Counted from the stretch's first letter, positions 2,572 through 25,327 are shown. The stretch: 27,037 nt of DNA from a virus (IMGVR_UViG_3300044786_000060:1-27037); one strand, 5' to 3'. Numbers and translations: made by a program. The notes: generated by a model from the sequence alone, not told the origin.

Positions 2572-2919
2572 TTACCAGTCTTGCGCCTGGTCTATCGTCT
2601 CGCGCTCTGGCTCTTTCGCCATGCCTGCGGCTTGGTCTGCGACTTCTGCCTGTGAGCACCTGTCTGCCGTCACACAGGCAGGCGCAGACAGGTCGAGCGC
2701 CATCCCTGCTTGCTCTGCAGGCAAGTGCCACACTAAAGGCAGGTTATAAGATTTCTCGATCACTTCGATTCCGTGTCCGAGTCTGCGTGTGTAGTGGGTT
2801 GGGTCTCCGTGTGGGGAGTAGGTCTCTCCGTGACAAATTTGCTTCTGCCTTCGGGTGACTTCGACCCAGTGAACTATGACGCATTCGTCACAATAACGCT
2901 GTTCGTAGTAGGTTTTCAT
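2572..2919 (-). CDS. Hypothetical protein with CxxC and an in-frame composite repeat
   Basis: The N-terminal 60 residues of this 115-aa protein contain a CDEC pair and several histidines (YCDECVIVHWVEVTRRQ, ICHGETY, HGDPTHYTRR), suggesting a small metal-binding unit. Residues of about 76-91 (LDLSAPACVTADRCSQAE) are encoded by the composite palindrome at 2646-2693. The same 48-base unit, identical in sequence, lies in the gene at 22482-22868, where it is also preceded by codons for Met-Ala-Leu. The start overlaps the previous stop (ATGA). Confidence 0.7.
   Translation of the reverse strand: MKTYYEQRYCDECVIVHWVEVTRRQKQICHGETYSPHGDPTHYTRRLGHGIEVIEKSYNLPLVWHLPAEQAGMALDLSAPACVTADRCSQAEVADQAAGMAKEPERETIDQAQDW
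2646..2693. repeat. Composite 48-bp nested palindrome, identical copy at 22529-22576
   Basis: The outer arms CTGCCTGTGAGC and GCGCAGACAGGT surround a complete inner palindrome (ACCTGTCTGCC ... GGCAGG). The unit at 22529-22576 is the same over all 48 bases, 20 kb away. Confidence 0.9.
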
Positions 2920-3230
2920 TGTTCCGCCTCTACCTGTGTGTCGGTAGACAGGTGGCTGAATTGAATAAACGCGAGTGAGTTCGTGTTTGTTGCACGCGGT
3001 GCGCCAAATGATTGAAGGATTGTTCCGTCATCATAGACAAGCGAAATGTTGGCTATGTTCTGGAATGTGATTTCGGTAATAAACAAGCTGCCGCGCACCT
3101 GGACTTTTGCGGATTTTGTAAGGCTGCTGGCTTCTAACACCAGACAATCACGGTATGCGCCTTGCACAAAACATCTACCGCGTAAGTTGATCGCGCCTTT
3201 GCCTTCGGGGGGGATATTGATCGGGGTCAT
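2916..3230 (-). CDS. Hypothetical beta-rich protein, 104 aa
   Basis: MTPINIPPEGKGAINLRGRCFVQG then alternating hydrophobic strands (DCLVLEASS, AKVQVRGSLFITEITF, ISLVYDDGTILQSF) look like a small beta-barrel or sandwich. I do not recognise the family. The leader is GGAGAAACCAGCAAATG, identical to that of the J-domain gene. The stop overlaps the next start (ATGA). The last codons, QVEAEQ, contain a partial palindrome arm. Confidence 0.7.
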   Translation of the reverse strand: MTPINIPPEGKGAINLRGRCFVQGAYRDCLVLEASSLTKSAKVQVRGSLFITEITFQNIANISLVYDDGTILQSFGAPRATNTNSLAFIQFSHLSTDTQVEAEQ

Positions 3231-3281
3231 TTGCTGGTTTCTCCTATTGATTGAACCGCGAGAACACCTCGCGGAAGATGA

Positions 3282-3848
3282 CTAAAAAAGTGATTGCTGT
3301 GCGCTGGCCCAGTGCCAGCAGGGGAAGCCCATGAACTGAGCCGAGGCCCAGGAACCGGCACAACCGCGCGGGCTGCCTGGTATGGGATTTGAAAAAGCAA
3401 AAACCGGAATGCCGCGCTCGACTGCCACACCTGCGACTTTGAGCGAGCCAACGCCGGGGGAGAAGAACACGGCTGCTGATGCGCCTGCGAGACCTGCAAC
3501 AGAGCGGGACATGAGACGGGCGACCATGGGAACCTGCAAACCACCACCGGCCAGCCATGACACGGAACCGCCCATGCTTGCGAACTGCTGAACCTGGCGG
3601 ACGGCTGACCCTGACCATGAACCATTGCCGGACTGAGCGAAGGCTGCATAGACTTGAAGCTGCGAAAACGACCAGGAATGAAGCATGGGACAAACGGAAG
3701 AAATGAAATGCTGGATTACCTGCTGATCTGCGCCAGTGGCACAACCAACAGTGATGGACTGGCCGGAAGCCAGCACAGCAGAAACGACCTGGCCCACGAT
3801 GGGGGAGGGGGGGAGCGATCGTGACCCGCCGAAGTAAACGCTAGACAT
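3282..3848 (-). CDS. SLOG / DprA-like Rossmann nucleotide-binding protein
   Basis: The N-terminus shows two hallmark motifs of the SLOG superfamily: YFGGSRS at residues 5-11 after the first strand and VGCATGADQ at residues 34-42. These form the nucleotide-binding loops in DprA/Smf and LOG-like proteins. A later GLAGASAAVFFSPG segment fits the third loop. SLOG proteins bind or process nucleotide derivatives or DNA, and in phages the role is usually unknown. The protein is 188 aa and rich in Ser, Gly and Ala, with many tryptophans late in the chain. No palindromes interrupt it. It has no clear ribosome site of its own and starts inside the end of the 28-aa gene at 3841-3927, so it is probably translated by coupling. 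Confidence 0.7.
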   Translation of the reverse strand: MSSVYFGGSRSLPPSPIVGQVVSAVLASGQSITVGCATGADQQVIQHFISSVCPMLHSWSFSQLQVYAAFAQSGNGSWSGSAVRQVQQFASMGGSVSWLAGGGLQVPMVARLMSRSVAGLAGASAAVFFSPGVGSLKVAGVAVERGIPVFAFSNPIPGSPRGCAGSWASAQFMGFPCWHWASAQQSLF

Positions 3849-3927
3849 GGGGCACCACTGGCATGGGCAATAAAGCCAAAAACTGAACTACGATTACTAG
3901 AAGGAAATGCTCGAAACGACCTTGCAT
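3841..3927 (-). CDS. 28-aa single-span membrane peptide coupled to the SLOG gene
   Basis: A short gene between the 60-aa gene and the SLOG gene encodes MQGRFEHFLLVIVVQFLALL followed by PMPVVPHV, a single hydrophobic helix after a short polar start. The ATG is one base after the TAA of the preceding gene and is served by AAAGAAAGG inside it. The TAG overlaps the SLOG start codon by eight bases in another frame, which would explain the missing ribosome site of SLOG. No homology is claimed. Confidence 0.5.
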   Translation of the reverse strand: MQGRFEHFLLVIVVQFLALLPMPVVPHV

Positions 3928-3928
3928 G

Positions 3929-4111
3929 TTATTTGCCTTTCTTTTGTTGGCTGAATTTTGCGAGCCAGATTGCCTGGACCTTGGTGGGATCAACTGACGG
4001 GTTTAGGGTAGCGGCTGCCTGGGCCAGGATTTGCGCCTGGCCAGATGTGGGTGCCGTGATTGCCTGGTGTATTAGGGACCTGGATGCTGCTTGCTGGATT
4101 GATGTTTTCAT
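3929..4111 (-). CDS. First gene of the leftward operon, 60-aa helical protein
   Basis: MKTSIQQAASRSLIHQAITA then an Ala/Gln-rich helix (SGQAQILAQAAATL) and a basic end (LAKFSQQKKGK). The function is unknown. The start at 4111 is chosen because the frame beyond it (to 4210) runs through the promoter. No Shine-Dalgarno sequence precedes the ATG. A promoter-like TTGTAT-N17-TACACT ends six bases before it, so the message may be leaderless like that of the HTH gene. Confidence 0.65.
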   Translation of the reverse strand: MKTSIQQAASRSLIHQAITAPTSGQAQILAQAAATLNPSVDPTKVQAIWLAKFSQQKKGK

Positions 4112-4117
4112 AGCATT

Positions 4118-4146
4118 AGTGTAGCACACAATGCAAGCGAATACAA
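4118..4146 (-). promoter_or_regulatory. Putative promoter of the leftward operon
   Basis: TTGTAT (4141-4146) and TACACT (4118-4123) on the minus strand are 17 bases apart. Each matches the consensus only partly, but the distance to the ATG (six bases) is the same as at 388. Directly upstream lie an AT-rich stretch and two copies of CAAGCGAA on the plus strand. Confidence 0.45.
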
Positions 4147-4571: not shown

Positions 4572-4707
4572 GGGTGCGGGTGTCCCGCCCACCTGTCTGC
4601 GTCGCGAACGCGACAGGCAGGTCTGCTTTTTATGCTCTTTTTGAGAACTGGCGAGCTGTATGTGAGCCTTGCGGATGCACGTCCGCAACCATCTGCTTTT
4701 TTGCTTC

Positions 4708-4758: not shown

Positions 4759-4998
4759 ATGAAAAAAACTGATGAAGTAAAAGGTAAATACTCTGTTGCT
4801 CCCCGTCCGGTCCGGCTCTCTGTCTGGTTGACGGCTGAGGACAAGTCCCGACTTGAGGAATTGTGTTCGCTGCTGTCCCCGTATTCGCCTTTGAGTTTGG
4901 GCAAGGCTTTGAGTGTGGCGATTCAGATGGCTTGGAGCGAGAAGGTGTCGCATGGCGCCATTGGCGCAACTATCCAGAAGAAGGCTGGCGGGAAGTGA
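4759..4998 (+). CDS. Ribbon-helix-helix-like small DNA-binding protein
   Basis: In this 79-aa protein, after a short basic start, RPVRLSVWLTAEDKSRLEEL (residues 16-35) has the strand-then-helix pattern of Arc/CopG-type ribbon-helix-helix domains. A second helix follows (SLGKALSVAIQMAWSEKV, residues 46-63). Such proteins are dimeric repressors or regulators. The C-terminus SHGAIGATIQKK is encoded across a GGCGCC-type palindrome (about 4952-4968), so it has been altered by insertion. The start at 4759 has AAAGGAG nine bases upstream and a good promoter. The stop overlaps the next start as TGATG. The family assignment rests on pattern only. Confidence 0.6.
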   Translation: MKKTDEVKGKYSVAPRPVRLSVWLTAEDKSRLEELCSLLSPYSPLSLGKALSVAIQMAWSEKVSHGAIGATIQKKAGGK

Positions 4999-5276
4999 TG
5001 GATATAAAGGATTTGGATTTGAAACCGCGCCTTCGGAACGCTTTGGCACGTCACGGTATAGATTCTGTGGAGGAATTGCTTTTGCACATGAAATTCGATA
5101 CTTCTTTTTATCATGCAATTCGTGGTGTTGGAAATAGTAGTTGGATGGAGATATTGGACATTTTGAAACAGAAGGATTTGCTTTCCATGCTTTGGGTGGT
5201 TTCTGCTGGTGACCATTCCAATTGCTCTACTTGTTATAAGTTTCATAAGAATGATCACGGTGGATTGAGGGCGTGA
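4998..5276 (+). CDS. RNA polymerase alpha C-terminal-domain-like protein
   Basis: Residues 7-57 of this 92-aa protein (DLKPRLRNALARHGIDSVEELL ... IRGVGNSSWMEILDIL) follow the fold pattern of the RNA polymerase alpha subunit C-terminal domain. The pattern is helix, turn with a GI(D/N)SV(E/G)ELL-like segment, and a helix-hairpin-helix (RGVGNSSW) before the last helix. Bacterial RpoA carries this domain to contact UP elements and activators. A free copy in a phage could bind DNA or interfere with activation. A Cys/His-rich tail (CSTCYKFHKNDH, residues 76-87) may bind zinc. It is translationally coupled to the RHH-like gene. Confidence 0.65.
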   Translation: MDIKDLDLKPRLRNALARHGIDSVEELLLHMKFDTSFYHAIRGVGNSSWMEILDILKQKDLLSMLWVVSAGDHSNCSTCYKFHKNDHGGLRA

Positions 5277-5825: not shown

Positions 5826-6107
5826 GGTTTGGGAGGGGCGGGGGGCCTGCCTGTGCGTGGCACGCAGACAGGCGGCTTGCGCGCTCTGGGTTTGGAACTG
5901 CTTGAAGCACAGGGTTATCGTGCTCCCACCGCAGAGCGAGTCCGCTCTGGAACTGCTTGACCCCAAATAGATAATCGTCCTTGCCTGCGTACTCGCAAGC
6001 AGGTATACTTCCATTTGACCTGTCTGCGTGCTTCACGCACAGGCAGATACGCGGAAGGATGAGGATGAGCCGAAACGAGAGGAGTACGCGAGTTCTGATC
6101 CGGTTAG
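5826..6107. other. Gene-free stretch with palindromes and a repeated 12-mer
   Basis: It contains palindromes at about 5848-5873, 5979-6005 and 6019-6046, and two copies of the theme GCTCT..GGAACTG (5883-5900 interrupted and 5944-5955), also seen at 5285-5296 before the Dam gene. I see no supported gene. The minus-strand frames here have no ribosome site. Confidence 0.6.
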
Positions 6108-10857: not shown

Positions 10858-11186
10858 GATCTTGTCTTTCTCCTTTTTGGTTGTGGTGTTATTCCTGCCC
10901 CTGCTTGCAGTGCAGGCAAGTGCGGTTCGGTAGGCAGGTCTTCGACGGCCTTTTCGATGTACTCGAATGGGCTTTCGCCTGCCTGCGCCTGCCTGTGTGA
11001 CGGCAGACAGGTGCTGGTAGGCAGGTCAGGCGTCAGGTCTCTGATGGCTTTTTCGAGTTCTTCTTTGGTCATCTTGTACTTTCCGCCTGCTTCTACGACA
11101 AAGACGATGGTTCCATCTTCTTTCAGGTCATAGGCAATGATGGTCGTCTTTTTGAGTTTGGCGTATGTGTTCGCGAGTGAAAACAT
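10854..11186 (-). CDS. Hypothetical protein, two in-frame repeat insertions
   Basis: Residues 1-51 of this 110-aa protein (MFSLANTYAKLKKTTIIAYDLKEDGTIVFVVEAGGKYKMTKEELEKAIRDL) form a natural-looking small alpha/beta domain. After that, a segment from the nested palindrome at 10978-11026 (LPTSTCLPSHRQAQAG) and another from the palindrome near 10897-10940 (LPALQAGAG) make up much of the rest. The functional part is therefore probably the first half plus the short stretch PFEYIEKAVEDL. The start follows AGGTGCAGAG. Confidence 0.65.
   Translation of the reverse strand: MFSLANTYAKLKKTTIIAYDLKEDGTIVFVVEAGGKYKMTKEELEKAIRDLTPDLPTSTCLPSHRQAQAGESPFEYIEKAVEDLPTEPHLPALQAGAGITPQPKRRKTRS
10978..11026. repeat. 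Nested palindrome inside a gene
   Basis: The outer arms CCTGCCTGCG and GGTAGGCAGGT enclose a complete inner palindrome (GCCTGTGTGACGGCAGACAGGT). The outer element without insert occurs at 1611-1636 and 23299-23323. Confidence 0.85.
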
Positions 11187-11194: not shown

Positions 11195-11707
11195 CTACAC
11201 TTTCAAATCGAAATTGGCGACTGCGCCCAACAGGTCAATGGTTGTGGTAAGTGCTTGATCGAGCGTGAGCTCGACGAGAACGTATACGTCGTTGTCGATC
11301 CAGATTGGCGTATCGAGTGTGAGCGTCATCAGGTGTTGGTCGAGGTCGTCGCGTTCGGCTGCGGTGTCGTGGCCGGCGTCGTAGGTGAATGTTTGTGCTG
11401 CCACAGCTGCAACGGCTGTATCTGCGCCGCGTGTGACTTTGTTGATCACTGCATCCACGGCGTCACATGCTGCGATGAGTATCTCGAAGTCAACTTCGAT
11501 GGACTTGAGATATGCGCCTTTGAGCGCGTTTGAGTTGGACGGTAGCAGGATCGGGATGTTGACCACGGCTGTTTGATCGGCTGCGGCGACGTGTTTCGCG
11601 ATTGTTCCTGTGACGGCTCCCGCCGCGTTCGTCCATGTTCCGGTTACGCAGTGGAACAAGGTCGGCGGGATGTACTGGCTCATGTGGGTGTCTTGAACGT
11701 ATCCCAT
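11195..11707 (-). CDS. Capsid decoration-type protein, copy B
   Basis: The 170-aa protein is a paralogue of the next gene upstream (11715-12221). Both start MGYV.DT.MSQ(Y/F)IPPT and share LPSNS..LKGAYLKSIEVD, NKVTRGADTAVA and WIDNDVY. The position just after the capsid gene and the beta-rich sequence suggest a decoration or capsid-stabilising protein, or possibly a head-completion protein. The inference is by position. Its leader (GTAGGTG) corresponds to the end of the upstream copy, as expected of a tandem duplication. Confidence 0.65.
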   Translation of the reverse strand: MGYVQDTHMSQYIPPTLFHCVTGTWTNAAGAVTGTIAKHVAAADQTAVVNIPILLPSNSNALKGAYLKSIEVDFEILIAACDAVDAVINKVTRGADTAVAAVAAQTFTYDAGHDTAAERDDLDQHLMTLTLDTPIWIDNDVYVLVELTLDQALTTTIDLLGAVANFDLKV

Positions 11708-11714: not shown

Positions 11715-12221
11715 CTACAATCTCAAAGTGTAGTTTGCGACTGCGGCGAGCACGTCATTGGTGACCGTTGCGCCTGCCACGATGGTCATGGTCAACAGAT
11801 AGTAGACATCGTTGTCGATCCATTCCGGGGTTGTGAGCGTGACCGTGCATTTGTGCTGGTCCTGTGTTTCTGCGCCTGATGCTGCGGTCAGACTCTGTGT
11901 GACCGTGACGGAAGAAACAACTGCGACGGCTGTGTCCGCTCCGCGCGTGACCTTGTTGAGCGCGAATGTTACCGAAGTGGCTGCGGCAAGTAGATTCTCA
12001 TAGTCTACTTCGATGCTTTTCAGGTAGGCTCCTTTCAGTCCTACGCTATTTGATGGCAGGGTGATTGGAATGGTTATCACGCTGGTTTGTGCGGTTGCTG
12101 CCCTGTGAAAGGCGATTGTGCCGGTGACTGCTCCGGCTGCTTGTGTGAAGGTGCCGGTCACGCCCATCATTGCGGTGGGCGGGATGAACTGGCTCATTGC
12201 GGTATCGTGAACGTATCCCAT
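11715..12221 (-). CDS. Capsid decoration-type protein, copy A
   Basis: The 168-aa protein is the first gene after the capsid protein in transcription order, with a strong ribosome site AAGGAGTAAACATC. The sequence is rich in Thr, Val and Ala and looks all-beta (GVTGTFTQAAGAVTGTI, VTVTQSLTAAS, VYYLLTMTIVAGATVT). The paralogue at 11195-11707 lies head to tail with it, 7 bases apart, with insertions and substitutions along the whole length. The divergence is too large for a recent event. Two copies may form hetero-oligomers on the shell. Confidence 0.65.
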   Translation of the reverse strand: MGYVHDTAMSQFIPPTAMMGVTGTFTQAAGAVTGTIAFHRAATAQTSVITIPITLPSNSVGLKGAYLKSIEVDYENLLAAATSVTFALNKVTRGADTAVAVVSSVTVTQSLTAASGAETQDQHKCTVTLTTPEWIDNDVYYLLTMTIVAGATVTNDVLAAVANYTLRL

Positions 12222-12251
12222 GATGTTTACTCCTTATGGGTTGGACTTGAT

Positions 12252-12336
12252 CCCCGGACGGGCTGCGACTTGCCTGCGATCACCTGTCTGCCGTCACACA
12301 GGCAGGCGCAAGCAGGAAGCATGAGTCCGTCCGGGG
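12252..12336. repeat. Hairpin with a nested palindrome in its loop
   Basis: CCCCGGACGG (12252-12261) and CCGTCCGGGG (12327-12336) form a perfect 10-bp stem. The loop carries a 48-base composite element (12269-12316) whose arms CTTGCCTGCG / CGCAAGCAGG surround the inner ACCTGTCTGCC palindrome. It lies between the capsid gene and the first decoration gene. Confidence 0.8.
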
Positions 12337-12370
12337 TGAATACGATTTGGACAGGAGACGGAAGACAGGA

Positions 12371-14759: not shown

Positions 14760-14800
14760 GGTTTCTCCTTCTGCCTGTGCGTGCAACGCACGCAGACAGG

Positions 14801-15058: not shown

Positions 15059-16471
15059 TTACTCCTCGGTTCCTTCTTCTTTGGGGTCGGTCTCGTCTGC
15101 GCCGGGGTTTGGTGCGGCTGCTTGGCCGGCTCCTGGCGCCGTCAATGGTTTGCGTTTGATCTTCGGCATAGTCTTGCCCCCGCCCCGCGACTCGCGGGGT
15201 TCCCACACTTCGGCGAACATCTTGTAGATGAGCCGTAGGAACTCAGCATCGTTTATGCCTTCCCTGTCGAACAGGTCGGCAAGCTGCGGGTATGCCCGTC
15301 CGAGTGCGAGTGCGAGCGTGGCATTGTCCCGCTCCGTGATGTCGGGTCCGGTGACTTTGATCTCTGCTTCAGCATCGACGCTCTTGTCGATGTGAGATCT
15401 GACTTCGAGCGCGACGCGCGCCATGTCGATGATCATCTCGAAGAAGTCGTTCTGCGTTTCTTCGAGTGTTCGGAATGTTGGCGTGCCGGCTGCTTCGGCG
15501 GTCGTGCGTGTTGAGCCTTCCGGTTCTGCGAGCCAGTGCATGGGGAATCCGATCCCGCTTACGATCATTCTTTTGATGGCCGTCCCGTCCATCGAAGCAT
15601 CAAACGCGTCCAGTTGTGCGGCCATGACGCCCCATTTTTCGCCGTTGTTTGTGTTCATTACAAGTAGGCTGCCGGATTGTGGTGGATTGGCTCTGAGTTC
15701 TTTTTCGCGTGCGCTTCTTTCGGCTTCGCTGGCGTATGTTCCGGTGATGACGTACATAAACACTGTACGGAAGCGATTGAGTCTGACTCGATCTTCGAGC
15801 CACGATGAGAAACGTCCTATCCATACGAGAAGCGGAGATAAATCGGCTTCGCCCCATGGTGAACCTACTGGCTGGTTGGATGCGAAGTGAAGCATGAACA
15901 ATTGCTGGTCTTTATCTGGTTGGTAGGCTTCCCATTTGTCCTGGCCTACGGCGTCGCGCGTGAAGCCGGTCTCCTGCTCGATGTCGTTCTGTTTGGTCTG
16001 GATTTCTTCGATCTGTTCTGCTGGCACCATGCGAATGATGGACATGCCGGTCTGGTCAACGTTGAAAAGTGGGAATAGATTACCTGTCCTGGTATCTTCA
16101 TCCTTCCAGCGTTTCAGGTTTCGTTTGAGTTTGTTTGCCTTTATCCATTCCTGAATGAATTTGTTTGTGCCTTCGTGGGGACTGGTGATGGTAATGCCTT
16201 TGCCGATGATGAAGGATGTCATTAGTCTGACGATCCTGCGTGCGATGGGATTGACTCTCCACGCGCGCAAGGACTCTCCGAAAATCTTTTTGCGGTCCCA
16301 TGATGTCCGGCCTTCGTACAGGTTGGACATTCCGCCTGTGAAGAAGTTGTTATCACGTTCGGGGCTGAGTGAGAGTGACGCCTCGAGCGCGTCGTTGAGC
16401 ATCACGATCCTGGCTTCGAGTTGTTTCTTTGACGGGGGACGGTTGGCTGTAGACTTTTGATTAGTAGGCAT
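15059..16471 (-). CDS. Portal protein
   Basis: At 470 aa the length and sequence pattern fit a phage portal: AWRVNPIARRIVRLMTSFIIGKGITI (residues 69-94), then FIQEWIKANKLKRNLKRWKDEDTRTGNLFPLFNVD, and later FMYVITGTYASEAERSAREKELRANPP and GFPMHWLAEPEGSTRTTAEA in the C-terminal half. The portal dodecamer forms the unique vertex through which DNA enters. Placement between terminase and the protease/capsid genes is standard. The C-terminus is rich in Pro, Ala and acidic residues. The ribosome site is GGAG six bases before the ATG. Confidence 0.85.
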   Translation of the reverse strand: MPTNQKSTANRPPSKKQLEARIVMLNDALEASLSLSPERDNNFFTGGMSNLYEGRTSWDRKKIFGESLRAWRVNPIARRIVRLMTSFIIGKGITITSPHEGTNKFIQEWIKANKLKRNLKRWKDEDTRTGNLFPLFNVDQTGMSIIRMVPAEQIEEIQTKQNDIEQETGFTRDAVGQDKWEAYQPDKDQQLFMLHFASNQPVGSPWGEADLSPLLVWIGRFSSWLEDRVRLNRFRTVFMYVITGTYASEAERSAREKELRANPPQSGSLLVMNTNNGEKWGVMAAQLDAFDASMDGTAIKRMIVSGIGFPMHWLAEPEGSTRTTAEAAGTPTFRTLEETQNDFFEMIIDMARVALEVRSHIDKSVDAEAEIKVTGPDITERDNATLALALGRAYPQLADLFDREGINDAEFLRLIYKMFAEVWEPRESRGGGKTMPKIKRKPLTAPGAGQAAAPNPGADETDPKEEGTEE

Positions 16472-16524: not shown

Positions 16525-16719
16525 TTATGTTTTCCCTGCTAATAGTTTTTCTAATCGTTCACGTGCGGCGATGGTTTCAGATGTCAAAGGGGAATACCGC
16601 ACTTCTTTTGCAAGATGTAGGGCGCCGTTCATACGGTCGCGGTTGGTGTGAAATTCTTCATTCCCTTTCAATGTGTCCAATATCTTCAACAAGTCTGATT
16701 TGTCGATTTCAATAGGCAT
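16525..16719 (-). CDS. Small protein between terminase and portal, 64 aa
   Basis: MPIEIDKSDLLKILDTLKGNEEFHTNRDRMNGALHLAKEVRYSPLTSETIAARERLEKLLAGKT is charged and almost wholly helical. The family is unknown. Its start overlaps the terminase stop by 11 bases and is served by CAGGAGATGAGCA, which lies within the terminase gene. Given its position it may be a head-assembly factor or a regulator of terminase, but nothing in the sequence shows this. Confidence 0.65.
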   Translation of the reverse strand: MPIEIDKSDLLKILDTLKGNEEFHTNRDRMNGALHLAKEVRYSPLTSETIAARERLEKLLAGKT

Positions 16720-18199
16720 TGCTCATCTCCTGCAAAACGTCCTGCTCCGGCTCGATGATGGTTGTTTCTGACGGCACGTACCATTCGAGTTTGTCGAGTT
16801 CGGCTGTCATGGCGTCGGCTGTGATGTGGTCGTCGTGGATAAGTTGTCCGCTTGAGTTACGCGTGCCGTCCTTCACGCCCCAACGCATGGTCTTGGCTGG
16901 CCCGATCAGGATTTCGCTTTCGCAGTTGGCGTATTGTTCATCAACGATCACGCTTGGCGCGCAATCTCTAAACCGGCCGGTTTCGATTATGCCGATGAAT
17001 GTATATCCGATCTCGCTCTTGGTCTGCTGTGTGAATTTGACGGGGATGGTTTTGGTTGGATACTTCTTGAAAAGCATCCCCCACAACCCCTCCCCTACTC
17101 CGGTTGCATCTTCGATGATGTATTGAACGTGCCATGAGTCAACCAATGCGGATATTTTTCCAAATATGGTGACGTGGTTCTCTCCCTGCCATGCGAAACG
17201 TTTTACCGTGCGGTAGGTTGGTGCTTGCAGTATTTCGAGTGAAGATAAATCAATGTCGATGATGTCTACTGTTACGTAGTCCCTGCCTGGATTGCCCATG
17301 CCGTCGAGATTCAGGAGTGCTTCGTCCTGTCCGCCAACGTCTATTGTGATGGCGTAGATGTTTCCTGGTATCGGCGTTTCTTGCGATGGCCGATCACCAA
17401 TCATCAACGCCCGGCGCGCGGCGTTGAACATGCCGGTCAGTTCGTCGATCTCTTCGCAAAAGTATTGCGTCTTTACGAGTGGATGCTGCCGGCCTAGTTT
17501 TTTGACTTCGTTGTCGATGAATGTTCCGTATGCGGGTACGATCTTGCGGACCTGGTCGGCATTGTAGATAAACACGCGCTTGATCCCGTCCTGCTTTTCG
17601 AGTTCGAGGGCTGCTCTCATCTCCCTTGCTAGCAGTGTCTTGCTTGTCCATGTGACTCCGGTGATGACTCTGGTGGCGTTCGTGCTGGCGGCCATTGGCA
17701 CGAAACGCTTGTCGTATATGCCCGGCTCGATGTCCTGGGCTTCGTTGATGAAGAGTGCGAGTGAGGCTGTTGCTCCTACAACGTTGGCGCTGCCGTCTCC
17801 TGATAGGAAACTGACGATGGCGTTTCCGATCATGCGCATGAAGTCGGAGCGTTTGGACCAGAACATTTTAGTAAGCAGGTTTGTTGAGAGTCGTTTCTCG
17901 AAGCGCATGATTGCATTGACCGTCTGTGGCTTGTAGGTTGGGTTGGCGACGACGATCCCTACTTCTCGATGTGCGTACAGATTGCACAGGTAAGCCAGAA
18001 GGTTTGCGAGTAGTTCGTCCTTTCCTGCCTGGCGTGACATGATGACGACGAACGTGAGTCCCTTTTTGTGGATGACCGAATCAATGATTGCTTTGGCCGG
18101 CGCGAGTTGATAGCTCCGCATGGTGATGCCTCCGCCGCGTTCGGTGAAGGAAGCGAAGTTCTTTGCGATGTGCTTGATCGTCTGTTTGATCGTGCTCAT
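16709..18199 (-). CDS. Terminase large subunit
   Basis: This 496-aa DNA-packaging motor has an ATPase with Walker A SRQAGKDE (about 55-62) and Walker B LALFINEAQD (147-156). It is followed by the coupling motif region and a nuclease domain with acidic residues in TIDVGGQDE, IIEDATGVGEG and DDHITADAM. The large subunit pumps DNA into the prohead and cuts it. The start at 18199 is chosen because its ATGA overlaps the previous stop. The longer frame to 18298 is made of the palindrome at 18208-18268. The Shine-Dalgarno sequence is weak, so coupling is likely. Confidence 0.9.
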   Translation of the reverse strand: MSTIKQTIKHIAKNFASFTERGGGITMRSYQLAPAKAIIDSVIHKKGLTFVVIMSRQAGKDELLANLLAYLCNLYAHREVGIVVANPTYKPQTVNAIMRFEKRLSTNLLTKMFWSKRSDFMRMIGNAIVSFLSGDGSANVVGATASLALFINEAQDIEPGIYDKRFVPMAASTNATRVITGVTWTSKTLLAREMRAALELEKQDGIKRVFIYNADQVRKIVPAYGTFIDNEVKKLGRQHPLVKTQYFCEEIDELTGMFNAARRALMIGDRPSQETPIPGNIYAITIDVGGQDEALLNLDGMGNPGRDYVTVDIIDIDLSSLEILQAPTYRTVKRFAWQGENHVTIFGKISALVDSWHVQYIIEDATGVGEGLWGMLFKKYPTKTIPVKFTQQTKSEIGYTFIGIIETGRFRDCAPSVIVDEQYANCESEILIGPAKTMRWGVKDGTRNSSGQLIHDDHITADAMTAELDKLEWYVPSETTIIEPEQDVLQEMSNAY

Positions 18200-18429
18200 G
18201 ATTTGGGCCTGCCTGTCGCGTTCCTGCCTGCCGCGCTGCGGCGCAGGCACGGCGCGACGCAGACAGGTGGAAAATCTGTACCGCGCTTGATCGACCACTT
18301 TATGACTTTGCCTGTGTCGTTTGTGTGGCGAACTAGTACGCGGTTGAAAATGAATGCTAAGATCGTATTGAACAATCCTAGTCGGGTCGTACCGCGAAGA
18401 TAGAATCGGTTTCGTAGATAGTTTTTCAT
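18196..18429 (-). CDS. Small protein between terminase subunits, repeat-derived tail
   Basis: Residues 1-50 of this 77-aa protein (MKNYLRNRFYLRGTTRLGLFNTILAFIFNRVLVRHTNDTGKVIKWSIK) are a basic, partly hydrophobic domain. The rest (CVAPCLRRSAAGRNATGRPK) is encoded by the nested palindrome at 18208-18268. The gene is overlapped at both ends as ATGA (with terminase small and large). The function is unknown. The original C-terminus has probably been replaced, so the present length is not informative. Confidence 0.6.
   Translation of the reverse strand: MKNYLRNRFYLRGTTRLGLFNTILAFIFNRVLVRHTNDTGKVIKWSIKRGTDFPPVCVAPCLRRSAAGRNATGRPKS
18208..18268. repeat. Nested palindrome, third loop type
   Basis: The outer arms CCTGCCTGTCGCG and GCGCGACGCAGACAGGT enclose CCTGCCTGCCGCGCTGCGGCGCAGGC. 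The inner element differs from the common inner ones, and resembles the CCCGCCTGCCGTTCCGGCGCGGGCAGG type at 25502-25528 and 27015-27037. Confidence 0.8.
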
Positions 18430-18821
18430 AATCCTAATTCCAAACGTAGTTCTTCCAATGCTTCCATGATGCCCTGTTCTAGCGTGCCGCCTTTGCCGCG
18501 TGTGAGGTAGTGTGTTCGGATCATGGTCGAGATTGATTGTGTCATGAGTGAAAGTGTGTTCAATTGCTGCAAATAATGGTTGTCGCGTGTTTCATTTCCT
18601 TGCATGTCGGTTATGTGGACTGCATTGAAGGACAATTCTTCTGTAAGTCTATCCATGCAGACACGGAGTAAATCAAGTTCGCTTTCAATCGTGAAGCGGT
18701 CTTGTGTCTCGAGTCTCTTGCTCTCGTCCGTTGTGAACCGGCGTGAATAGAAGCCGTGTTTTTCGGCATTTTTGTTTCCTGGCTGCGCGCCGGCCTTGCG
18801 TCCTTTCGTGGTTTTGGGCAT
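18426..18821 (-). CDS. Terminase small subunit-like protein
   Basis: The 131-aa protein begins MPKTTKGRKAGAQPGNKNAEKHGFYSRRFT, the basic GNKNA(x)KHGFY motif typical of phage small packaging and DNA-binding proteins, followed by helices with DRLTEELSFN and LNTLSLMTQSISTMIRTHYL. It would recognise the packaging site and load the large subunit. The ribosome site AGGTGA is part of a palindrome, as is the end of the gene before it. The assignment rests on motif and position. The large-subunit gene follows after the 77-aa gene. Confidence 0.7.
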   Translation of the reverse strand: MPKTTKGRKAGAQPGNKNAEKHGFYSRRFTTDESKRLETQDRFTIESELDLLRVCMDRLTEELSFNAVHITDMQGNETRDNHYLQQLNTLSLMTQSISTMIRTHYLTRGKGGTLEQGIMEALEELRLELGL

Positions 18822-19186: not shown

Positions 19187-19897
19187 TTATGGATACCTAT
19201 AAGGATCTGGTAGTGGCTTTGTCATGCCTGCCTCGTCAGCAGACAGGTCCAGCTTTTCCACGTTCGCAAGTGGGACCGTGATTTTTGGGTAGCGGTTTCG
19301 GTTGGCAAGAAGCAGGATGAAGACTCGCGCCCCTCCGCCTTGCGGGAAGCGCCTAATGATGCCATTGTGGTTCGTATCTTCGTCGATGGAGACTGCATCG
19401 AAGTATTGCCATGGTTTCAGGTTTTCGTATGTGGGGATGGGTCCTTCGGAGTTCAAGGTCTCGATCACCAACAGCGCGCCTTCTGGATAGCCTGGGAAGA
19501 TGGCTCCCCCACACAGGAGCGCTTCCTGTTTTGGCTTTGCTGCTGTGACGTCCATCCTGTTTATAAAATCGGCTCTTGGATCTCCTGGTTTGTCGAAGCC
19601 GTTGTAATTGTTGAAGGCGCGCTGGTAGGTGTGGAGTGCGCGCCACTTGCGATTGTCTAATTGTCCGTTGAGAGCGCGTTCAAGTCTTTGCCATGCTTCT
19701 CCGAATTCAACGAAGTGGTTCGGGAACATTGGATTGACTTCGGGCACGTTCAAGCGCGTGAATGGCTGTGGGTCGTGTTTGTATCTCCATAGTTGCGGGA
19801 GTGGTGGCGGGATTGTGGGCGGGTCTGTTACTACTTCCGGAATATAGGTTCTATTCTCGGTTTGGTATTGGAGGATGACGCGCGGTGGGTAAATCAT
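19187..19897 (-). CDS. Protein of the lysis cassette with a duplicated N-terminal motif
   Basis: The 236-aa protein starts MIYPPRVILQYQTENRTYIPE, almost the same as the C-terminal end of the endolysin gene before it (YPPRVILQYENEIKGYVPE). A Pro-rich stretch follows (PPTIPPPLPQLW), then a domain I do not recognise (LNGQLDNRKWRALHTYQRAFNN, GGAIFPGYPEGALLVIETLN, WQYFDAVSIDEDTNHNG). The shared short motif could be a cell-wall or partner binding tag, or a left-over of a duplication. The ATG overlaps the endolysin stop (ATGA). A palindrome at about 19227-19249 is in frame near its end. Confidence 0.6.
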   Translation of the reverse strand: MIYPPRVILQYQTENRTYIPEVVTDPPTIPPPLPQLWRYKHDPQPFTRLNVPEVNPMFPNHFVEFGEAWQRLERALNGQLDNRKWRALHTYQRAFNNYNGFDKPGDPRADFINRMDVTAAKPKQEALLCGGAIFPGYPEGALLVIETLNSEGPIPTYENLKPWQYFDAVSIDEDTNHNGIIRRFPQGGGARVFILLLANRNRYPKITVPLANVEKLDLSADEAGMTKPLPDPYRYP

Positions 19898-20625
19898 TCG
19901 GGTACGTAGCCTTTGATCTCGTTCTCGTATTGGAGAATGACGCGCGGCGGGTATGCGTTTCCGGTTCCTGTCTGCCCAGGCAGGGGCGGTGTGGGCGGGA
20001 AAAGTATCTGATAGAACGCGGGAGAAATCCAGTTACAGTCTGTGCTCCCGCTGATGCCTGTGACAATGCCATTGCTGGTGTACTGCCATAGATATACTGG
20101 TCCCCATTTGGTTTGATCGGGGATGTAGCTCGCTGGTGGTGCCGGATACAAGTCGGGGAACCAAGGGTAGCCGGCCGGCCATGTGGGAACTTGTTTTAGT
20201 CGTGCCTGCTGGCTGGCCGTCATTGTGATTGGATCGAGAATGTTTTTTCTCGAATAGATGAGCATTAGATTTGTAAATTGTGCCTGCACGTAATCGAGCC
20301 ATGCAATGATCTGGTTGGCGGTCTCTCCGCCTTCTTCGATGTCGAGTGCGAGAATGTCTTTGGGTTCGAGCACTGGCGATATTGTTTTTACGAAATGTTC
20401 TGCTTGTGTGATCGGGTTTGTGAATTTGCGATGGAAATGATATGCCCCTCTTAGTATGCCGTCCTGTTTCAGGTCGGCAAAGTATTTTAGGAATGTGCTA
20501 TCTGTGAAGTCATCGGCTTCGGTTGCTTTGGTGATGACTAGCACTGGTTTCGGAGAAACCAGTGCGAAGTCTGGAACTTCTTTCCAATGGCTTGTGTCAT
20601 AAACTGGCGGGAGTTTGACGATCAT
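19894..20625 (-). CDS. Endolysin, glycoside hydrolase family 25 (lysozyme)
   Basis: The 243-aa protein begins with YDTSHW (catalytic-region Asp10), then GAYHFHRK (60-67) and ALDIEEGG with the acidic pair D95 and E97, as in the DxE motif of GH25 muramidases. It cleaves the N-acetylmuramic acid to N-acetylglucosamine bond of peptidoglycan. WQYTSNGIVTGISGSTDCNW is the usual C-terminal edge of the barrel. After a Pro/Gly linker (with an in-frame palindrome, LPGQTG) a short tail YPPRVILQYENE follows. There is no signal peptide, so a holin or host export is needed; the holin-like gene is nearby. Confidence 0.85.
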   Translation of the reverse strand: MIVKLPPVYDTSHWKEVPDFALVSPKPVLVITKATEADDFTDSTFLKYFADLKQDGILRGAYHFHRKFTNPITQAEHFVKTISPVLEPKDILALDIEEGGETANQIIAWLDYVQAQFTNLMLIYSRKNILDPITMTASQQARLKQVPTWPAGYPWFPDLYPAPPASYIPDQTKWGPVYLWQYTSNGIVTGISGSTDCNWISPAFYQILFPPTPPLPGQTGTGNAYPPRVILQYENEIKGYVPE

Positions 20626-20901: not shown

Positions 20902-21040
20902 TGCCTGCCTGTGCCGTTTGCACGCAGACAGGTGAAGGCAGTCGCCTTGTCTGCTTCTGGGCCTGCCTACCTATGGTAGGCTAGTGGCGCAGAAGCAGCT
21001 TAGATTATTGGACGCAAGTGTATCACAGATGTCTAACGGA
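20902..21040 (-). other. Short intergenic leader before the terminator
   Basis: It contains a palindrome of the common type at 20903-20932 and an inverted repeat CTGCTTCTG / CAGAAGCAG (about 20960-20998) around a small hairpin. I found no convincing promoter, though TACACT at about 21013-21018 on the minus strand has a faint -10 look. No gene is visible. Confidence 0.4.
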
Positions 21041-21310
21041 TCAGATTACCCGCTTGGGGCGGGACGCCGTACAAAGCTGACAAACGGTATCAACTTCCAG
21101 ATTAGTAAACTCGCATTCGCCGCACACCCAGCCTAAGTCGGGTGCACGCAAGGGTTGGGCGGCATTCTCGGCTACGAACGCGAGACAATCAGCGGCACAC
21201 GCTGTAAAGGTTTCGCGTTCGCCAGATTGCACACGATCACCAAATTCTTTATCTTCGATTTCAAAACGCCATTTGCCATTCCACGTTTCAATGGTGATTT
21301 TTATTTCCAC
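21041..21310 (-). CDS. Protein with a RanBP2-type zinc finger
   Basis: In this 89-aa protein the C-terminus has W61-x-C63-x2-C66-x3-N70-x6-C77-x2-C80, the full pattern of a RanBP2-type zinc finger. In eukaryotes this finger binds RNA or ubiquitin; in bacteria it is less common. The N-terminal part (MEIKITIETWNGKWRFEIED) looks like a small beta domain. The start codon is GTG, preceded by CAGGAGC. The gene overlaps the methyltransferase end by 23 bases. It is the last gene before the terminator and the late block, which would be a natural place for a regulator, but this is inference. Confidence 0.75.
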   Translation of the reverse strand: MEIKITIETWNGKWRFEIEDKEFGDRVQSGERETFTACAADCLAFVAENAAQPLRAPDLGWVCGECEFTNLEVDTVCQLCTASRPKRVI

Positions 21311-21995
21311 GTTTTGCTCCTGGGCGCTTCGACTTTAGAGACAATTTGATTACGCTTTCATACTCAATACGCTTTTCGCTATTCTGACCAAAACGCATTG
21401 ATGGAGTATTTATTTTCAAATGCTCAACCACTTCATAGCCAAGAGATAAAATTGTTTCAATGTGCCATTCGGCGACAAACTGCTCTTGCCCGTTGCGGAT
21501 ATGGTTTTTGATATTCAAGACAAACACGCCGCCAATTCGTAAAACTCTTGTGGCTTCCTGCCACGCCTTGGTGTGGAAATCTCTATACTCTTTGCCCCAT
21601 TGCATACTGCCCGAGTTATCAGCATTCAATTTTCTACCAAGTTTTGCGGTGTAAGTAATTCGGTCATATCCATCAAGCAATTCATCCGCCATGCGGTTTC
21701 CGTAAGTGGGCGAAGTGCAAACGGCGTCAAAGTAATTATCTTGCCAGGGCAAAGCCAGAGCATTGGCGCGTGTGGTTCGTGGATTGATTGCCGCCCATTC
21801 AGGTTCGATCTCTGTCGCCTGAATTTCAGCGTGTGGATACCAGCGATTGAGTAAAAACACTTTGCCAGTTCCGCCGAATGGATCAAGAATGCAAGTTGAA
21901 TCAGCCAACATTCTTACAAATGCGCCCAACAGCACATCCGTATATTTTGCGGGATGTTTGGGGTTGGCAGTTGGTAACTCGAAAAGTGTGTTCAT
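21288..21995 (-). CDS. DNA methyltransferase, SAM-dependent
   Basis: The 235-aa protein has motif I DPFGGTGK (38-45) for S-adenosylmethionine binding and motif IV TSPTYGNR (94-101) in place of the usual (N/D/S)PPY. Conserved regions WGKEYRDFHTKAWQEATRVLRIGGVFVLNIKNHIR follow, all as in class I N4-cytosine/N6-adenine DNA methylases of phages. The start ATG 21995 is preferred because it overlaps the previous stop (ATGA). A TTG at 22013 is possible. The T in place of the second P of motif IV is a variation seen in some related enzymes, and activity is likely but not certain. No restriction enzyme partner is visible. Confidence 0.8.
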   Translation of the reverse strand: MNTLFELPTANPKHPAKYTDVLLGAFVRMLADSTCILDPFGGTGKVFLLNRWYPHAEIQATEIEPEWAAINPRTTRANALALPWQDNYFDAVCTSPTYGNRMADELLDGYDRITYTAKLGRKLNADNSGSMQWGKEYRDFHTKAWQEATRVLRIGGVFVLNIKNHIRNGQEQFVAEWHIETILSLGYEVVEHLKINTPSMRFGQNSEKRIEYESVIKLSLKSKRPGAKRGNKNHH

Positions 21996-22261
21996 TGGTG
22001 GTTCTTTTTCCAATTAGGATCAACGTGAGACAGGAATTGATTTAGTGCGCGGATGCCGGCAGTTTTCCACGTGTTGCCAGTTTCCAAATGCTTCCGGATT
22101 TCTCTGACGGCTTCGCTCACATCCTGCAATTGGGCAAGTTTGCTATCGATGGATTGTAGGATGGCGCGCGTCCGATCAGTGATTGGTTGTTCTGCCTGTG
22201 CGCTGCATGGCGCCGTTGGCGCCACAGGCGCAGACAGGTCGGGTTCTTCGATGACTGCCAT
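21992..22261 (-). CDS. Hypothetical protein with composite repeat near its start
   Basis: MAVIEEP is followed directly by the composite palindrome (22192-22239) read as DLSAPVAPTAPCSAQAEQ, then a helical, charged domain (RTRAILQSIDSKLAQLQDVSEAVREIRKHLE) and WKTAGIRALNQFLSHVDPNWKKNH. The functional part is likely the helical segment, possibly a coiled coil. The ribosome site AGGAGTAATATC is strong. The stop overlaps the methyltransferase start. It encodes 89 aa and the family is not recognised. Confidence 0.65.
   Translation of the reverse strand: MAVIEEPDLSAPVAPTAPCSAQAEQPITDRTRAILQSIDSKLAQLQDVSEAVREIRKHLETGNTWKTAGIRALNQFLSHVDPNWKKNHQ
22192..22239. repeat. Composite 48-bp palindrome, second copy
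   Basis: It has the same structure as 1535-1582 (one mismatch) and is identical to 25199-25246. Here it lies in frame seven codons after a start codon. Confidence 0.9.
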
Positions 22262-22481: not shown

Positions 22482-22868
22482 CTAGAACATCTGCCCTTGG
22501 ATTGTGCGCGCCGTTGGAATGTCGGCTTCTGCCTGTGAGCACCTGTCTGCCGTCACACAGGCAGGCGCAGACAGGTTGAGTGCCATGCGCCGATCGCTAT
22601 CCACGATTTTACTCGGTTGGATGATTTCCACATGGTAAGGCCAGTGTTTGAGTACGGTTTCCCATTCTTGTTCTGATGGATAGACGGTGTCGCGCGAAAT
22701 GATGAGTGTGTATGCGTTGGGCCTGCCTCTGCCTGTGCGTGGCACGCAGACAGGTGCGCAGGCAGGTCTCTGCAGAATGGAAACGTGCAAGCCTTGTTTC
22801 AGTCTGCGCCTGGCCGGTTTGCCCTGCTTGGTGTCGTCAATCATTTGGTTGATGAGTTGGGTTAGCAT
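22482..22868 (-). CDS. Hypothetical protein with two in-frame composite repeats
   Basis: The chain MLTQLINQMIDDTKQGKPARRRLKQGLHVSIL is interrupted by RPACAPVCVPRTGRGRP (palindrome 22721-22767). It continues as NAYTLIISRDTVYPSEQEWETVLKHWPYHVEIIQPSKIVDSDRRM, and then has ALNLSAPACVTADRCSQAE (composite repeat 22529-22576). Without the inserts an alpha/beta domain of some 85 residues remains. This is the clearest gene in which palindromes were added in frame twice. The ribosome site AAGGAGC and the 32-base overlap with the gene before fit an operon. Confidence 0.7.
   Translation of the reverse strand: MLTQLINQMIDDTKQGKPARRRLKQGLHVSILQRPACAPVCVPRTGRGRPNAYTLIISRDTVYPSEQEWETVLKHWPYHVEIIQPSKIVDSDRRMALNLSAPACVTADRCSQAEADIPTARTIQGQMF
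22529..22576. repeat. Composite 48-bp nested palindrome, identical to 2646-2693
   Basis: The match is exact over 48 bases. The following bases (GAGTGCCAT here, GAGCGCCAT there) are also similar, so slightly more than the element may be shared. Confidence 0.9.
22721..22767. repeat. Nested palindrome inside a gene
   Basis: The arms GCCTGCCTC and GCGCAGGCAGGT surround the palindrome TGCCTGTGCGTGGCACGCAGACAGGT, whose free form is seen at about 5848-5873. Confidence 0.75.
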
Positions 22869-23193: not shown

Positions 23194-23518
23194 GATGGTA
23201 TAGCCTTTCCACGATCCTGTTTCGGTTTTTCTTATCGAGCGTGTATCTCCACCACTTGACGTGAGGGGGCAATGGTTCCCTTTTGGGCTGATTTGCGCCG
23301 CCTGCCTGCGTGCTGGTAGGCAGGCGTGTGTGCTTTGGCAAGTAAAGCATCCTGCGGATGTTGGGATTGGCTGGCTCCTCGCCGTAGCGAATGAGCCGGT
23401 GGACGTAGTACACGTTCACGCCGAGTGCCTTTGCAAGTGCCTGGAAGTTCCAGCGCGCCCGTTTGAATTCGGTTTTGAGCCTGCGTGGGGTGGCGGGATG
23501 GATAGTGGGTTTGATCAT
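23168..23518 (-). CDS. Helix-turn-helix regulator-like protein
   Basis: Residues 24-58 of this 116-aa protein (NFQALAKALGVNVYYVHRLIRYGEEPANPNIRRML) fit an XRE/Cro-type helix-turn-helix with the usual LAK.LGV...V...I. pattern. A palindrome (23299-23323) is in frame right after it (TRLPTSTQAG), followed by a basic domain (KWWRYTLDKKNRNRIVERLYHHA). It may be a repressor or an activator. The start ATG 23518 overlaps the previous stop (ATGA), and the end overlaps the coiled-coil gene. Confidence 0.65.
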   Translation of the reverse strand: MIKPTIHPATPRRLKTEFKRARWNFQALAKALGVNVYYVHRLIRYGEEPANPNIRRMLYLPKHTRLPTSTQAGGANQPKREPLPPHVKWWRYTLDKKNRNRIVERLYHHAKHINAQ

Positions 23519-24341: not shown

Positions 24342-24375
24342 AAGATCACCTTTATTAGTAGTAAGCAGTAGCGCA

Positions 24376-24549
24376 TGTGGAAAGAATGAAAAGAATTATT
24401 TTACGGTACGTGTTACTCTGCCATTCTTCCCACAAGGCACATGTGAACATTTAGGAACAAGTCGGCTTTCGGTGTGGAATGAATCATTCGATCTGCTCCT
24501 AACTGTTGTTGCCTGTGGATAACTCTAGGGTTGCTCTATTCTTTCCACA
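24376..24549. other. Cluster of five DnaA-box-like 12-mers, candidate replication origin
   Basis: Copies of ATTCTTTCCACA or close variants occur at 24376-24387 (minus), 24423-24434 (plus, ATTCTTCCCACA), 24473-24484 (minus, ATTCATTCCACA) and 24538-24549 (plus). A consensus DnaA box TTATCCACA is at 24514-24522 (minus). Spacing is 47, 50, 41 and 24 bases. An AT-rich tract (24385-24407) is next to the first. All but the last copy lie in the intergenic region between the SH3 gene and the gene at 24525-24896; the last is inside that gene. Confidence 0.55.
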
Positions 24550-24896
24550 GCCTTCTTGTGGACTGAATATTTTACGGGGATGTCCAGGGGTGTTTTTTGT
24601 AGCATTGCCTGAAATATGATGACTTCACAGGCTGTGCTTGAGTACATTACACCGCGTCCTGGGCTGACGAGTAGAGGGTGTTCCACGTCTATCAGGCAGG
24701 CGATGATCAGGGCGATTGGTAGTAGTCCCTTTTCGGTCGCTATCTGGATTGGGTATCCATAGTTGCCCATGCACCATTGGCTTGCTGTTTCGAAGCGTTC
24801 TTGTGATGTTGTCGCTTCGCGCCCGAAATTGTCAATAAAGCATCTGACGATCTCTGCGTCCATCTGTTCATTACCGTTTTTCGCTTTGCGGCTCAT
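24525..24896 (-). CDS. Hypothetical protein, 123 aa
   Basis: MSRKAKNGNEQMDAEIVRCFIDNFGREATTSQERFETASQWCMGNYGYPIQ, then a hydrophobic segment (LLPIALIIACLIDVEHPLLV) and a C-terminal alpha/beta part. The start ATG 24896 is chosen for AGGAGATTTTACC just upstream. Another ATG at 24917 is seven codons further out. The hydrophobic segment could be a buried helix, and a membrane span is possible. The family is not recognised. Its last codons include one of the DnaA-like 12-mers. Confidence 0.65.
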   Translation of the reverse strand: MSRKAKNGNEQMDAEIVRCFIDNFGREATTSQERFETASQWCMGNYGYPIQIATEKGLLPIALIIACLIDVEHPLLVSPGRGVMYSSTACEVIIFQAMLQKTPLDIPVKYSVHKKAVERIEQP

Positions 24897-24920
24897 GGTA
24901 AAATCTCCTGTGCTCATGGT

Positions 24921-24960
24921 GCTCTCGCGCGGCTTCGACCGCGCGAGAGCGTTTTTATTT
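24921..24960 (+). terminator. Strong hairpin with a plus-strand T-run
   Basis: GCTCTCGCGCGG (24921-24932) pairs with CCGCGCGAGAGC (24939-24950), a perfect 12-bp stem, followed on the plus strand by GTTTTTATTT. On the minus strand it lies in the 5-prime leader of the gene at 24525-24896, four bases before an ATG, with no T-run. It may terminate antisense transcription or shield the minus-strand leader. Confidence 0.7.
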
Positions 24961-25185
24961 GAATATCCGGCGAAGCCAGCGGACGAACTTATTCCTGCCT
25001 GTGCGAAGTACACGCACGCACCTGTCTGCGTGCCCCGCACAGGCAGAGACAGGTGGCCGGACGACTTGCAGCAACCTGCGGAGTCTGGTCTGTGTAATGA
25101 GATCATCGTCCAGCCTGGGCGCTCGTGATGTCCGGCGCCGGAATTCGAATAGGCGTTTGGCTTCGGCTTTGGATAGTCGTTTCAT
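24955..25185 (-). CDS. Basic hypothetical protein with in-frame repeats
   Basis: The 76-aa protein begins MKRLSKAEAKRLFEFRRRTSRAPRLDDDLITQTRLRRLLQ, which is very basic. Then comes a segment from the nested palindrome at 24994-25054 (RPPVSACAGHADRCVRVLRTGR), and it ends in NKFVRWLRRIFK. The basic helices may bind nucleic acid. The ribosome site is GGAAATAAG. It overlaps the gene at 25103-25327 by 83 bases, because that gene runs on after a repeat insertion. Confidence 0.6.
   Translation of the reverse strand: MKRLSKAEAKRLFEFRRRTSRAPRLDDDLITQTRLRRLLQVVRPPVSACAGHADRCVRVLRTGRNKFVRWLRRIFK
24994..25054. repeat. Nested palindrome in a gene
   Basis: The outer arms CCTGCCTGTGCG and GCAGAGACAGGT are filled by an inner element ACCTGTCTGCGTGCCCCGCACAGGCAG and a short ACACGCACGC spacer. 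The in-frame reading is kept. Confidence 0.8.
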
Positions 25186-25327
25186 GGCTTATTTCCTTCT
25201 GCCTGTGCGCTGCATGGCGCCGTTGGCGCCACAGGCGCAGACAGGTCGGCGGGTCTCCATGCCTGGGGCATGGGCCGTTGTCGCCTATGTAGTGCAGGCA
25301 GATGCAGGTTTCGATTTGTTCGTTCAT
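25103..25327 (-). CDS. Small zinc-like protein extended by a repeat
   Basis: The first 26 residues (MNEQIETCICLHYIGDNGPCPRHGDP) carry a CxC...CxxH pattern common in small phage zinc peptides. The leader GGAGCAAACCAGCAATG is of the conserved type. From residue 27 on, the frame reads the composite palindrome (25199-25246) as PTCLRLWRQRRHAAHRQ in a different phase from its other copies. It then runs into the start of the next gene, up to a stop at 25103. The original gene probably ended shortly after HGD, so the present C-terminal two thirds are likely non-functional. Confidence 0.55.
   Translation of the reverse strand: MNEQIETCICLHYIGDNGPCPRHGDPPTCLRLWRQRRHAAHRQKEISHETTIQSRSQTPIRIPAPDITSAQAGR
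25199..25246. repeat. Composite 48-bp palindrome, third copy
   Basis: It is identical to 22192-22239 over 48 bases and lies directly upstream of the basic gene's start region. Confidence 0.9.

Follow-up and report, generated by a model that had tools for sequence, protein, structure and literature searches.

Small palindromes of a phage genome look like a class of minimal mobile DNA with a bias for hairpin loops

The window analysed here is a 27,037-nt IMG/VR phage record (IMGVR_UViG_3300044786_000060) in which small palindromes, termed units below, recur singly and nested within one another. The units are probably minimal non-autonomous mobile hairpins: they insert as exact blocks without target duplication, show a bias for loops, spread also as composites and keep a constrained structure, and they are proposed to move in trans as folded single-stranded DNA. 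These phage hairpins appear to form a class of minimal mobile DNA that has not been described. A first-pass annotation had listed eleven palindrome-in-palindrome composites and read them as mobile palindromes that prefer loops; all eleven were recovered to within 1–2 nt, and the main point of that interpretation is supported.

Relatives of the phage were gathered via TerL (large terminase) and via the capsid, with identities from 98% downward. Each unit defined by the architecture described below was cut out exactly, and the joined flanks were matched to the relatives. Ungapped empty sites were obtained for 12 of 37 window units, several of them with all 20 of 20 flank bases in agreement; at these sites the joined flanks matched exactly, and no target-site duplication was observed. 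A 1-nt T repeat at some insertion sites was not separable from the unit sequence; a duplication of this single T was considered, and exact unit boundaries account for the data without it. Pairwise comparison revealed further units in relatives that are missing from the window, e.g. 27 nt at window position 2599 (L012) and 48 nt at 19906 (L007). Whole composites were missing from relatives at 1534, 12269, 22191 and 22528, and 22191 and 25198 carry copies without a difference over 53 nt (96% identity for the 1534 copy), indicating that composites also move as single units. The composites at 2645 and 22528 are 95% identical over 64 nt; given such near-identical composites, some of the sites in Table 1 are copies and not independent nesting events. 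In relatives below approximately 77% TerL identity the core motifs are almost missing, which points to a recent unit load. In the relative L012 the gene-sized window segments 1801–2147 and 2336–2560 are missing, with clean ends; turnover of small genes is therefore also high in this region.

The first-pass annotation had anticipated orthologous sites carrying the outer hairpin alone, and such sites were found. At 18208, L007 has the hairpin GGGCCTGCCTGTCGCGTTCGCGACGCAGACAGGTGG, and the window carries 30 nt more between TT and CG. At 12252–12336, L255 has the hairpin CCCGGACGGGCTGCGAAAGCATGAGTCCGTCCGGG with a GAAA tetraloop and no insert, and the window carries a 48-nt composite between GA and AA; the 10-bp stem annotated for this third, unrelated hairpin was confirmed as exact. 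In L066 a 27-nt unit lies in the loop of a hairpin whose counterpart in L008 has a 14-bp stem and no insert. The hairpin downstream of a gene at window 12235–12340 varies in stem sequence when compared with L008, L255 and L066, with pairing kept, and its loop was struck independently in L066 and in the window. Outer units occur letter for letter as simple copies elsewhere, at 23301 (for 10978), at 4592 (for 18208), in L012 (for 22191) and in L008 (for 24994). Simple outers thus exist, contrary to the counter-case raised at first pass (composites that always move whole, with no simple outer), although composites do also move whole. The outer 27-mer of 1534 likewise occurs as a simple copy, letter for letter, both in other viral contigs and in assemblies that bear the labels actinobacterium, Desulfaltia, Planctomycetota, Alkaliphilus and Deltaproteobacteria. 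The empty sites are direct evolutionary evidence that very small palindromes insert into hairpin loops, an event that is difficult to observe, as the majority of palindromes lack an empty site that can be dated. For most composites the inner palindrome lies in the loop of the outer one, as annotated; at 22722 and 24994 it lies at C^T of the unpaired CT instead, the second hot spot of nesting in these phages. The eleven listed composites are real, and those at 10894–10941 and 25496–25546 had been missed.

Loop preference was evaluated by forcing the insertion point into an apical loop. A stability of −7 kcal/mol was reached by 6 of 21 empty sites versus 6.7% of random points (P = 0.002, obtained after two earlier, less specific metrics that were not or only weakly significant), and −10 kcal/mol by 3 of 21 versus 2.1% (P = 0.009). 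The enclosing base-pair count in minimum free energy folds did not separate insertion points from background, and a simple stem-length score did not separate them clearly. In bacterial loci, 10 of 150 merged units were nested at a unit coverage of 0.53% of bases (P = 1e-8), and all 10 lay in the inner or loop part of the outer unit. Insertion into loops amounts to a bias, not a rule; in this form the annotated preference is borne out by the enrichment over random positions and by the bacterial nested units.

All composites fit a single rule, N5-CT-inner-N5'-CAG(G/A), with N5 and N5' complementary. A unit thus opens with the first strand of a 5-bp stem of variable sequence, continues through an unpaired CT and an inner part (loop or hairpin) to the complementary 5-mer, and closes with a CAGG or CAGA tail; its length is usually 18–33 nt, and that of composites 42–63 nt. 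This architecture gave 49 matches in the window versus 0–3 in each of 20 first-order Markov shuffles, which excludes chance. Among all dinucleotide/trinucleotide choices, CT plus CAG ranked first in the window (49; runner-up 14) and in close relatives; it was not among the top choices in distant relatives. The stems found were CCTGC, CCTGT, CTTGC, TCTGC, CCCGC, TCTAC, TGGCG, CATGC and CCTGA. An initial grouping by sequence family alone (CCTGTCTGC and others) was dropped in favour of the structural rule, which also covers the CCCGC, CTTGC, TGGCG and TCTAC stems. Covariation was determined for eight distinct units, seven from insertion polymorphisms and one (window 2929) from the architecture scan: 5 of 5 stem pairs changed on both sides, 100% of cells were paired, and CT and CAG were constant. 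The covariation score of 1.04 was reached by 0 of 500 shuffles (slid controls: ≤0.31). Predicted folds and covariation place the CT unpaired within the stem, and the constant tail CAG(G/A) reads 5'-YCTG on the opposite strand. The defining fold allows units to be found by structure rather than by sequence. CGC comes directly after unit alpha (Table 1) at 6 of 6 places, in five different contexts (window 2659, 10988, 12283 and 22542; L007 399; L066 4680), a possible target preference; for units other than alpha no fixed target was seen.

Among 123 subfamily units, whose ends are common to the copies so that these are not independent, 100 had lengths divisible by three and 105 were open in all six frames, versus 10% of random segments. 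Such lengths were equally common among units outside any long open frame (53 of 66), which rules out per-site frame selection as their cause and makes them a property of the family. Most families have 3n lengths without a stop codon and are therefore tolerated inside proteins. In-frame units, some of them in essential genes, were found in the barrel domain of ribonucleotide reductase, in the helicase domain of UvrD, and in RecG, MetRS and tRNA nucleotidyltransferase; among the window's own units, the 30-nt terL insert and the inserts of 48 nt preserve the frame, and the 31-nt unit at 14770 lies between genes. The units in ribonucleotide reductase, UvrD and MetRS represent a steady supply of peptides inserted in frame.

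Scanning for the pattern of one subfamily matched 25 viral contigs and, among the matches listed, genomes from more than 12 phyla, in which its occurrence is sparse; one of the assemblies is labelled Methanosarcinales. The matches were mostly metagenome assemblies of uncultured lineages; cultured phages gave none, and plasmids gave one (Sulfuricystis). Whole genomes contained 1–111 copies each, and a reversed control pattern gave almost no matches; the unit interiors were genome-specific, which argues against contamination. In samples that each include their own seed genome, units were present in 23 of 199 Planctomycetota, 11 of 192 Patescibacteria and 5 of 200 Pseudomonadota. In 1.9 Mb, genome G001 (L067 and others) has 111 copies, and longer flanks (ccttacaaac..tctgaatata) are common to many of them; the copies with common flanks represent a larger repeat that contains the unit. 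Identical letters turn up in phages, in many bacterial phyla and in one archaeal assembly, and this points to a broad horizontal spread of the 27-nt element, for which phages are a plausible vehicle. An Rfam search gave no match for the units, and a literature search by sequence in open-licence papers retrieved no description of them.

With regard to the mechanism, we infer single-stranded hairpin intermediates and a recombinase acting in trans. Units would move as folded single-stranded DNA and be recognised via the stem, the unpaired CT and the CAGG tail by a structure-recognising single-strand recombinase, whose preference for single strands would also draw them to loops and bulges. They land in the loops of older hairpins, of their own kind or unrelated, more often than expected, and the resulting composites go on to spread whole. 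The leading, though unproven, candidate for the recombinase is a Y1/HUH enzyme. Y1_Tnp was present in 27 of 29 element-bearing genomes and in 13 of 13 Planctomycetota genomes with at least three copies. Identifying the enzyme would explain the movement of elements too small to encode anything. A wider proposal is made tentatively and with some reserve: the units may form a class defined by its fold (5-bp stem, CT bulge, CAGG tail) and moved as single-stranded hairpins by a common recombinase; this class would prefer the loops of other hairpins and so give nested hairpins, cross phyla and domains via phages and repeatedly add 6–16 residues to proteins.

Several observations weigh against these readings. 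The control family PF00665, an unrelated transposase, was present in 11 of the same 13 Planctomycetota genomes, so the association with Y1 presence is not specific. Transposases flanked by the same arms, for which the first-pass annotation had suggested a search, were not found: none of 40 Y1 loci from unit-bearing genomes had units on both sides, and within 700 nt there were three unit matches, from two loci. On these two grounds the Y1 transposase was not accepted as the mobiliser. An autonomous element with split ends was likewise not found in the loci examined, nor was a lone half-site pair around a gene, except for one unconvincing case in L013. Nor was a mobiliser found in the window, where no recombinase domain was detected in the subset of open reading frames (ORFs) scanned, in agreement with the earlier remark that no transposase is visible there. 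Furthermore, 15 of 21 insertions lie outside stable hairpin loops, the covariation unit at 2929 derives from the architecture scan rather than from an empty site, the unit inserted at 18223 carries the variant tail CACGG, and some inserted hairpins of these phages have no CT/CAGG at all. Palindromic insertions of the latter type were observed in L012, L208 and at window 15183 (e.g. TGTCGCCATGGCGCCATGCGACA and CCCGCCCCGCGACTCGCGGGG), which indicates at least one further class of inserted hairpin.

Random insertion, with purifying selection leaving units in harmless places, is a rather improbable explanation of the nesting. Existing elements and terminator hairpins would be harmless sites, so nesting would arise without any loop preference, and it fits this idea that genes fill most of the phage, that many insertions are in frame and that the majority lie outside stable loops. 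Selection predicts insertions into arms as frequently as into loops, whereas the nested units of genome loci are essentially all in the loop or inner part, and those of phages occupy the loop or the C^T bulge, one of them exactly inside a GAAA tetraloop. Coding constraint or selection against gene disruption may inflate the nesting signal; either leaves the choice of loop over arm unexplained. Palindromes are prone to template-switching and slippage errors, and nested palindromes might accordingly grow in place on hairpins; this is very unlikely, as both the inner and the outer units have identical counterparts elsewhere, the boundaries of empty sites coincide exactly with those of units, and L255 and L007 contradict it. 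We give equally little credence to a regulatory role in which selection maintains the units as terminators, uptake sites or binding sites: their hairpin form and the intergenic position of some units fit it, but their presence differs between close relatives, their positions are not conserved, many lie within coding sequence, and Rfam has no counterpart.

The units may alternatively belong to an unrecognised superfamily of repetitive extragenic palindromic (REP) elements moved by RAYT (TnpAREP) Y1 transposases, which we regard as possible but unlikely. The hairpin, the unpaired stem bases and the fixed foot tetranucleotide agree with it, since TnpAREP cleaves at CT and depends on a bulge and on a tetranucleotide at the foot (PMC8266576), and so does the Y1_Tnp distribution given above. 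The units' tag is CAGG/CCTG and not GTAG or CGTC, and both the 40 unflanked Y1 genes and the PF00665 control speak against it. Mobile hairpins with a bias for loops remain the preferred reading.

Table 1. Units, composites and genes of the window
Feature	Coordinates	Strand	Details
Composite, 48 nt	1534-1581	+	outer TCTGC-CT-..-GCAGA-CAGG (27 nt), 21-nt TGGCGCCGTTGGCGCCACAGG in loop; empty in L012, L013, L205, L208
Simple unit	1612-1635	-	CCTGC-CT-ACCGAACC-GCAGG-CAGG; empty in L013
44-nt unit	2107-2150	+	perfect inner palindrome in loop
Composite	2645-2692	+	24-nt outer unit, 24-nt unit alpha in loop
Inner unit alpha	2659-2682	+	CCTGTCTGCCGTCACACAGGCAGG; within composite 2645-2692
Simple unit, 30 nt	4592-4621	+	identical to outer hairpin of 18208
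Simple unit	5980-6003	+	CTTGC-CT-GCGTACTC-GCAAG-CAGG; empty in L008, 20/20 flank bases identical
Composite	10894-10941	.	21-nt CTTGC unit (10900-10920) at C^T bulge of CCTGC unit; missed at first pass
Composite	10978-11025	-	outer CCTGCCTACCAGCACGCAGGCAGG, alpha in loop; outer identical to 23301-23324
Unrelated hairpin	12252-12336	.	exact 10-bp stem 12252-12261/12327-12336; loop holds composite 12269-12316
Composite	12269-12316	+	outer CTTGC unit, alpha in loop; exactly missing in L255, 20/20 flank bases identical
Simple unit	13900-13920	-	TGGCG-CT-GTTAG-CGCCA-CAGG, stem fully compensated; empty in L257
Composite, 60 nt	14026-14085	+	30-nt unit (14041-14070) in loop of 30-nt unit; region absent from L008, L013
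Simple unit, 31 nt	14770-14800	+	intergenic, upstream of capsid gene, length not 3n; absent from L014, L013, L066
Composite	18208-18267	+	in 5' part of terL; 30-nt outer and 30-nt insert; outer alone in L007 (97% identical)
Insert, 30 nt	18223-18252	+	CCTGCCTGCCGCGCTGCGGCGCAGGCACGG in loop of 18208 hairpin
Simple unit	20904-20932	-	CCTGT stem; empty in L012, L015
Composite	22191-22238	+	like 1534, outer GCTGC variant; empty in L013; outer 27-mer is a simple insertion in L012
Composite	22528-22575	+	like 2645; empty in L008, L064
Composite	22722-22766	+	27-nt unit (22728-22754) at C^T bulge of 18-nt CCTGC unit
Simple unit	23301-23324	-	identical to outer unit of 10978-11025
Composite	24994-25053	.	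27-nt unit (25021-25047) at C^T of larger unit; outer alone in L008
Composite	25198-25245	+	identical to 22191-22238
Composite	25496-25546	+	CCCGC unit (25502-25528) at C^T bulge of another CCCGC unit; missed at first pass
Protease-capsid fusion gene	12447-14786	minus	
Portal gene	15059-16471	minus	
Large terminase (terL) gene	16709-18298	minus	
Small terminase gene	18426-18821	minus	
GH25 endolysin gene	19894-20625	minus	
DNA methyltransferase gene	21288-22013	minus	

Apart from the genes listed in Table 1, the ORF at 4863–5276 (plus strand) matches the RNA polymerase alpha C-terminal domain (Pfam PF03118, E 6e-7), which is unusual for a phage; it is among the few plus-strand genes of the window. 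The genes at 11195–11707 and 11715–12221 are tandem paralogs, with direct repeats D14, D16 and D18 spaced 514–520 nt. A leader, CATTTGCTGGATTCTCC, is common to several gene starts (window 2333, 3228, 26844 and others) and reads GGAGAA..CCAGCAAATG on the coding strand; GGAGAAACCA is present six times.

Among known systems, the small dispersed repeats (SDRs) of cyanobacteria were reportedly described by Elhai et al. in 2008 as very small, mobile, folded repeats with no known enzyme. To our knowledge their sequence differs from that of the units, and no architecture is known to be common to both. We also know of no sequence that the units have in common with the hairpin elements of mitochondria. 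The latter (GC clusters, double-hairpin and repetitive hairpin-forming elements) are likewise short mobile hairpins, some in genes without frameshift (PMC2800124), but belong to eukaryotic organelles. Insertion sequences (IS) that target REP (IS1397, ISPpu9 and others) also insert into palindromic repeats (PMC1525189); these are full insertion sequences with a transposase gene, whereas here the insert itself is a small palindrome of the same family. For a miniature inverted-repeat transposable element of a DDE insertion sequence a target-site duplication is expected, and the units show none. IS200/IS605-like single-strand transposition proceeds without duplication beside a preferred short target; for the units no duplication was seen, and a fixed neighbour, CGC, was observed with alpha only. 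Rickettsia palindromic elements (RPE) resemble the units as palindromes in frame in protein genes (PMC10969869), but are approximately 100–150 bp long and described from Rickettsia, whereas the units measure 18–33 nt and occur in many phyla and in phages. The likeness to REP suggested at first pass holds for the hairpin with unpaired stem bases and fails for the GTAG/CGTC tag and a flanking RAYT. REP/REPIN elements with RAYT (TnpAREP) are non-autonomous 20–40 nt hairpins with unpaired stem bases, a fixed foot tag and a family-variable stem (PMC3733652, PMC8266576, PMC3116915). Their tag is GTAG/GTGG or CGTC and that of the units CAGG/CCTG; unlike REP, the units are often in frame in genes, occur in phages and are nested in loops, with no RAYT found adjoining. 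The units work like the REP system but are not classed as REP, because the tag differs, a flanking RAYT is lacking and the presence association is non-specific. Compared with known tagged mobile palindromes, their new traits are the broad spread, the in-frame residence and the nesting in loops.

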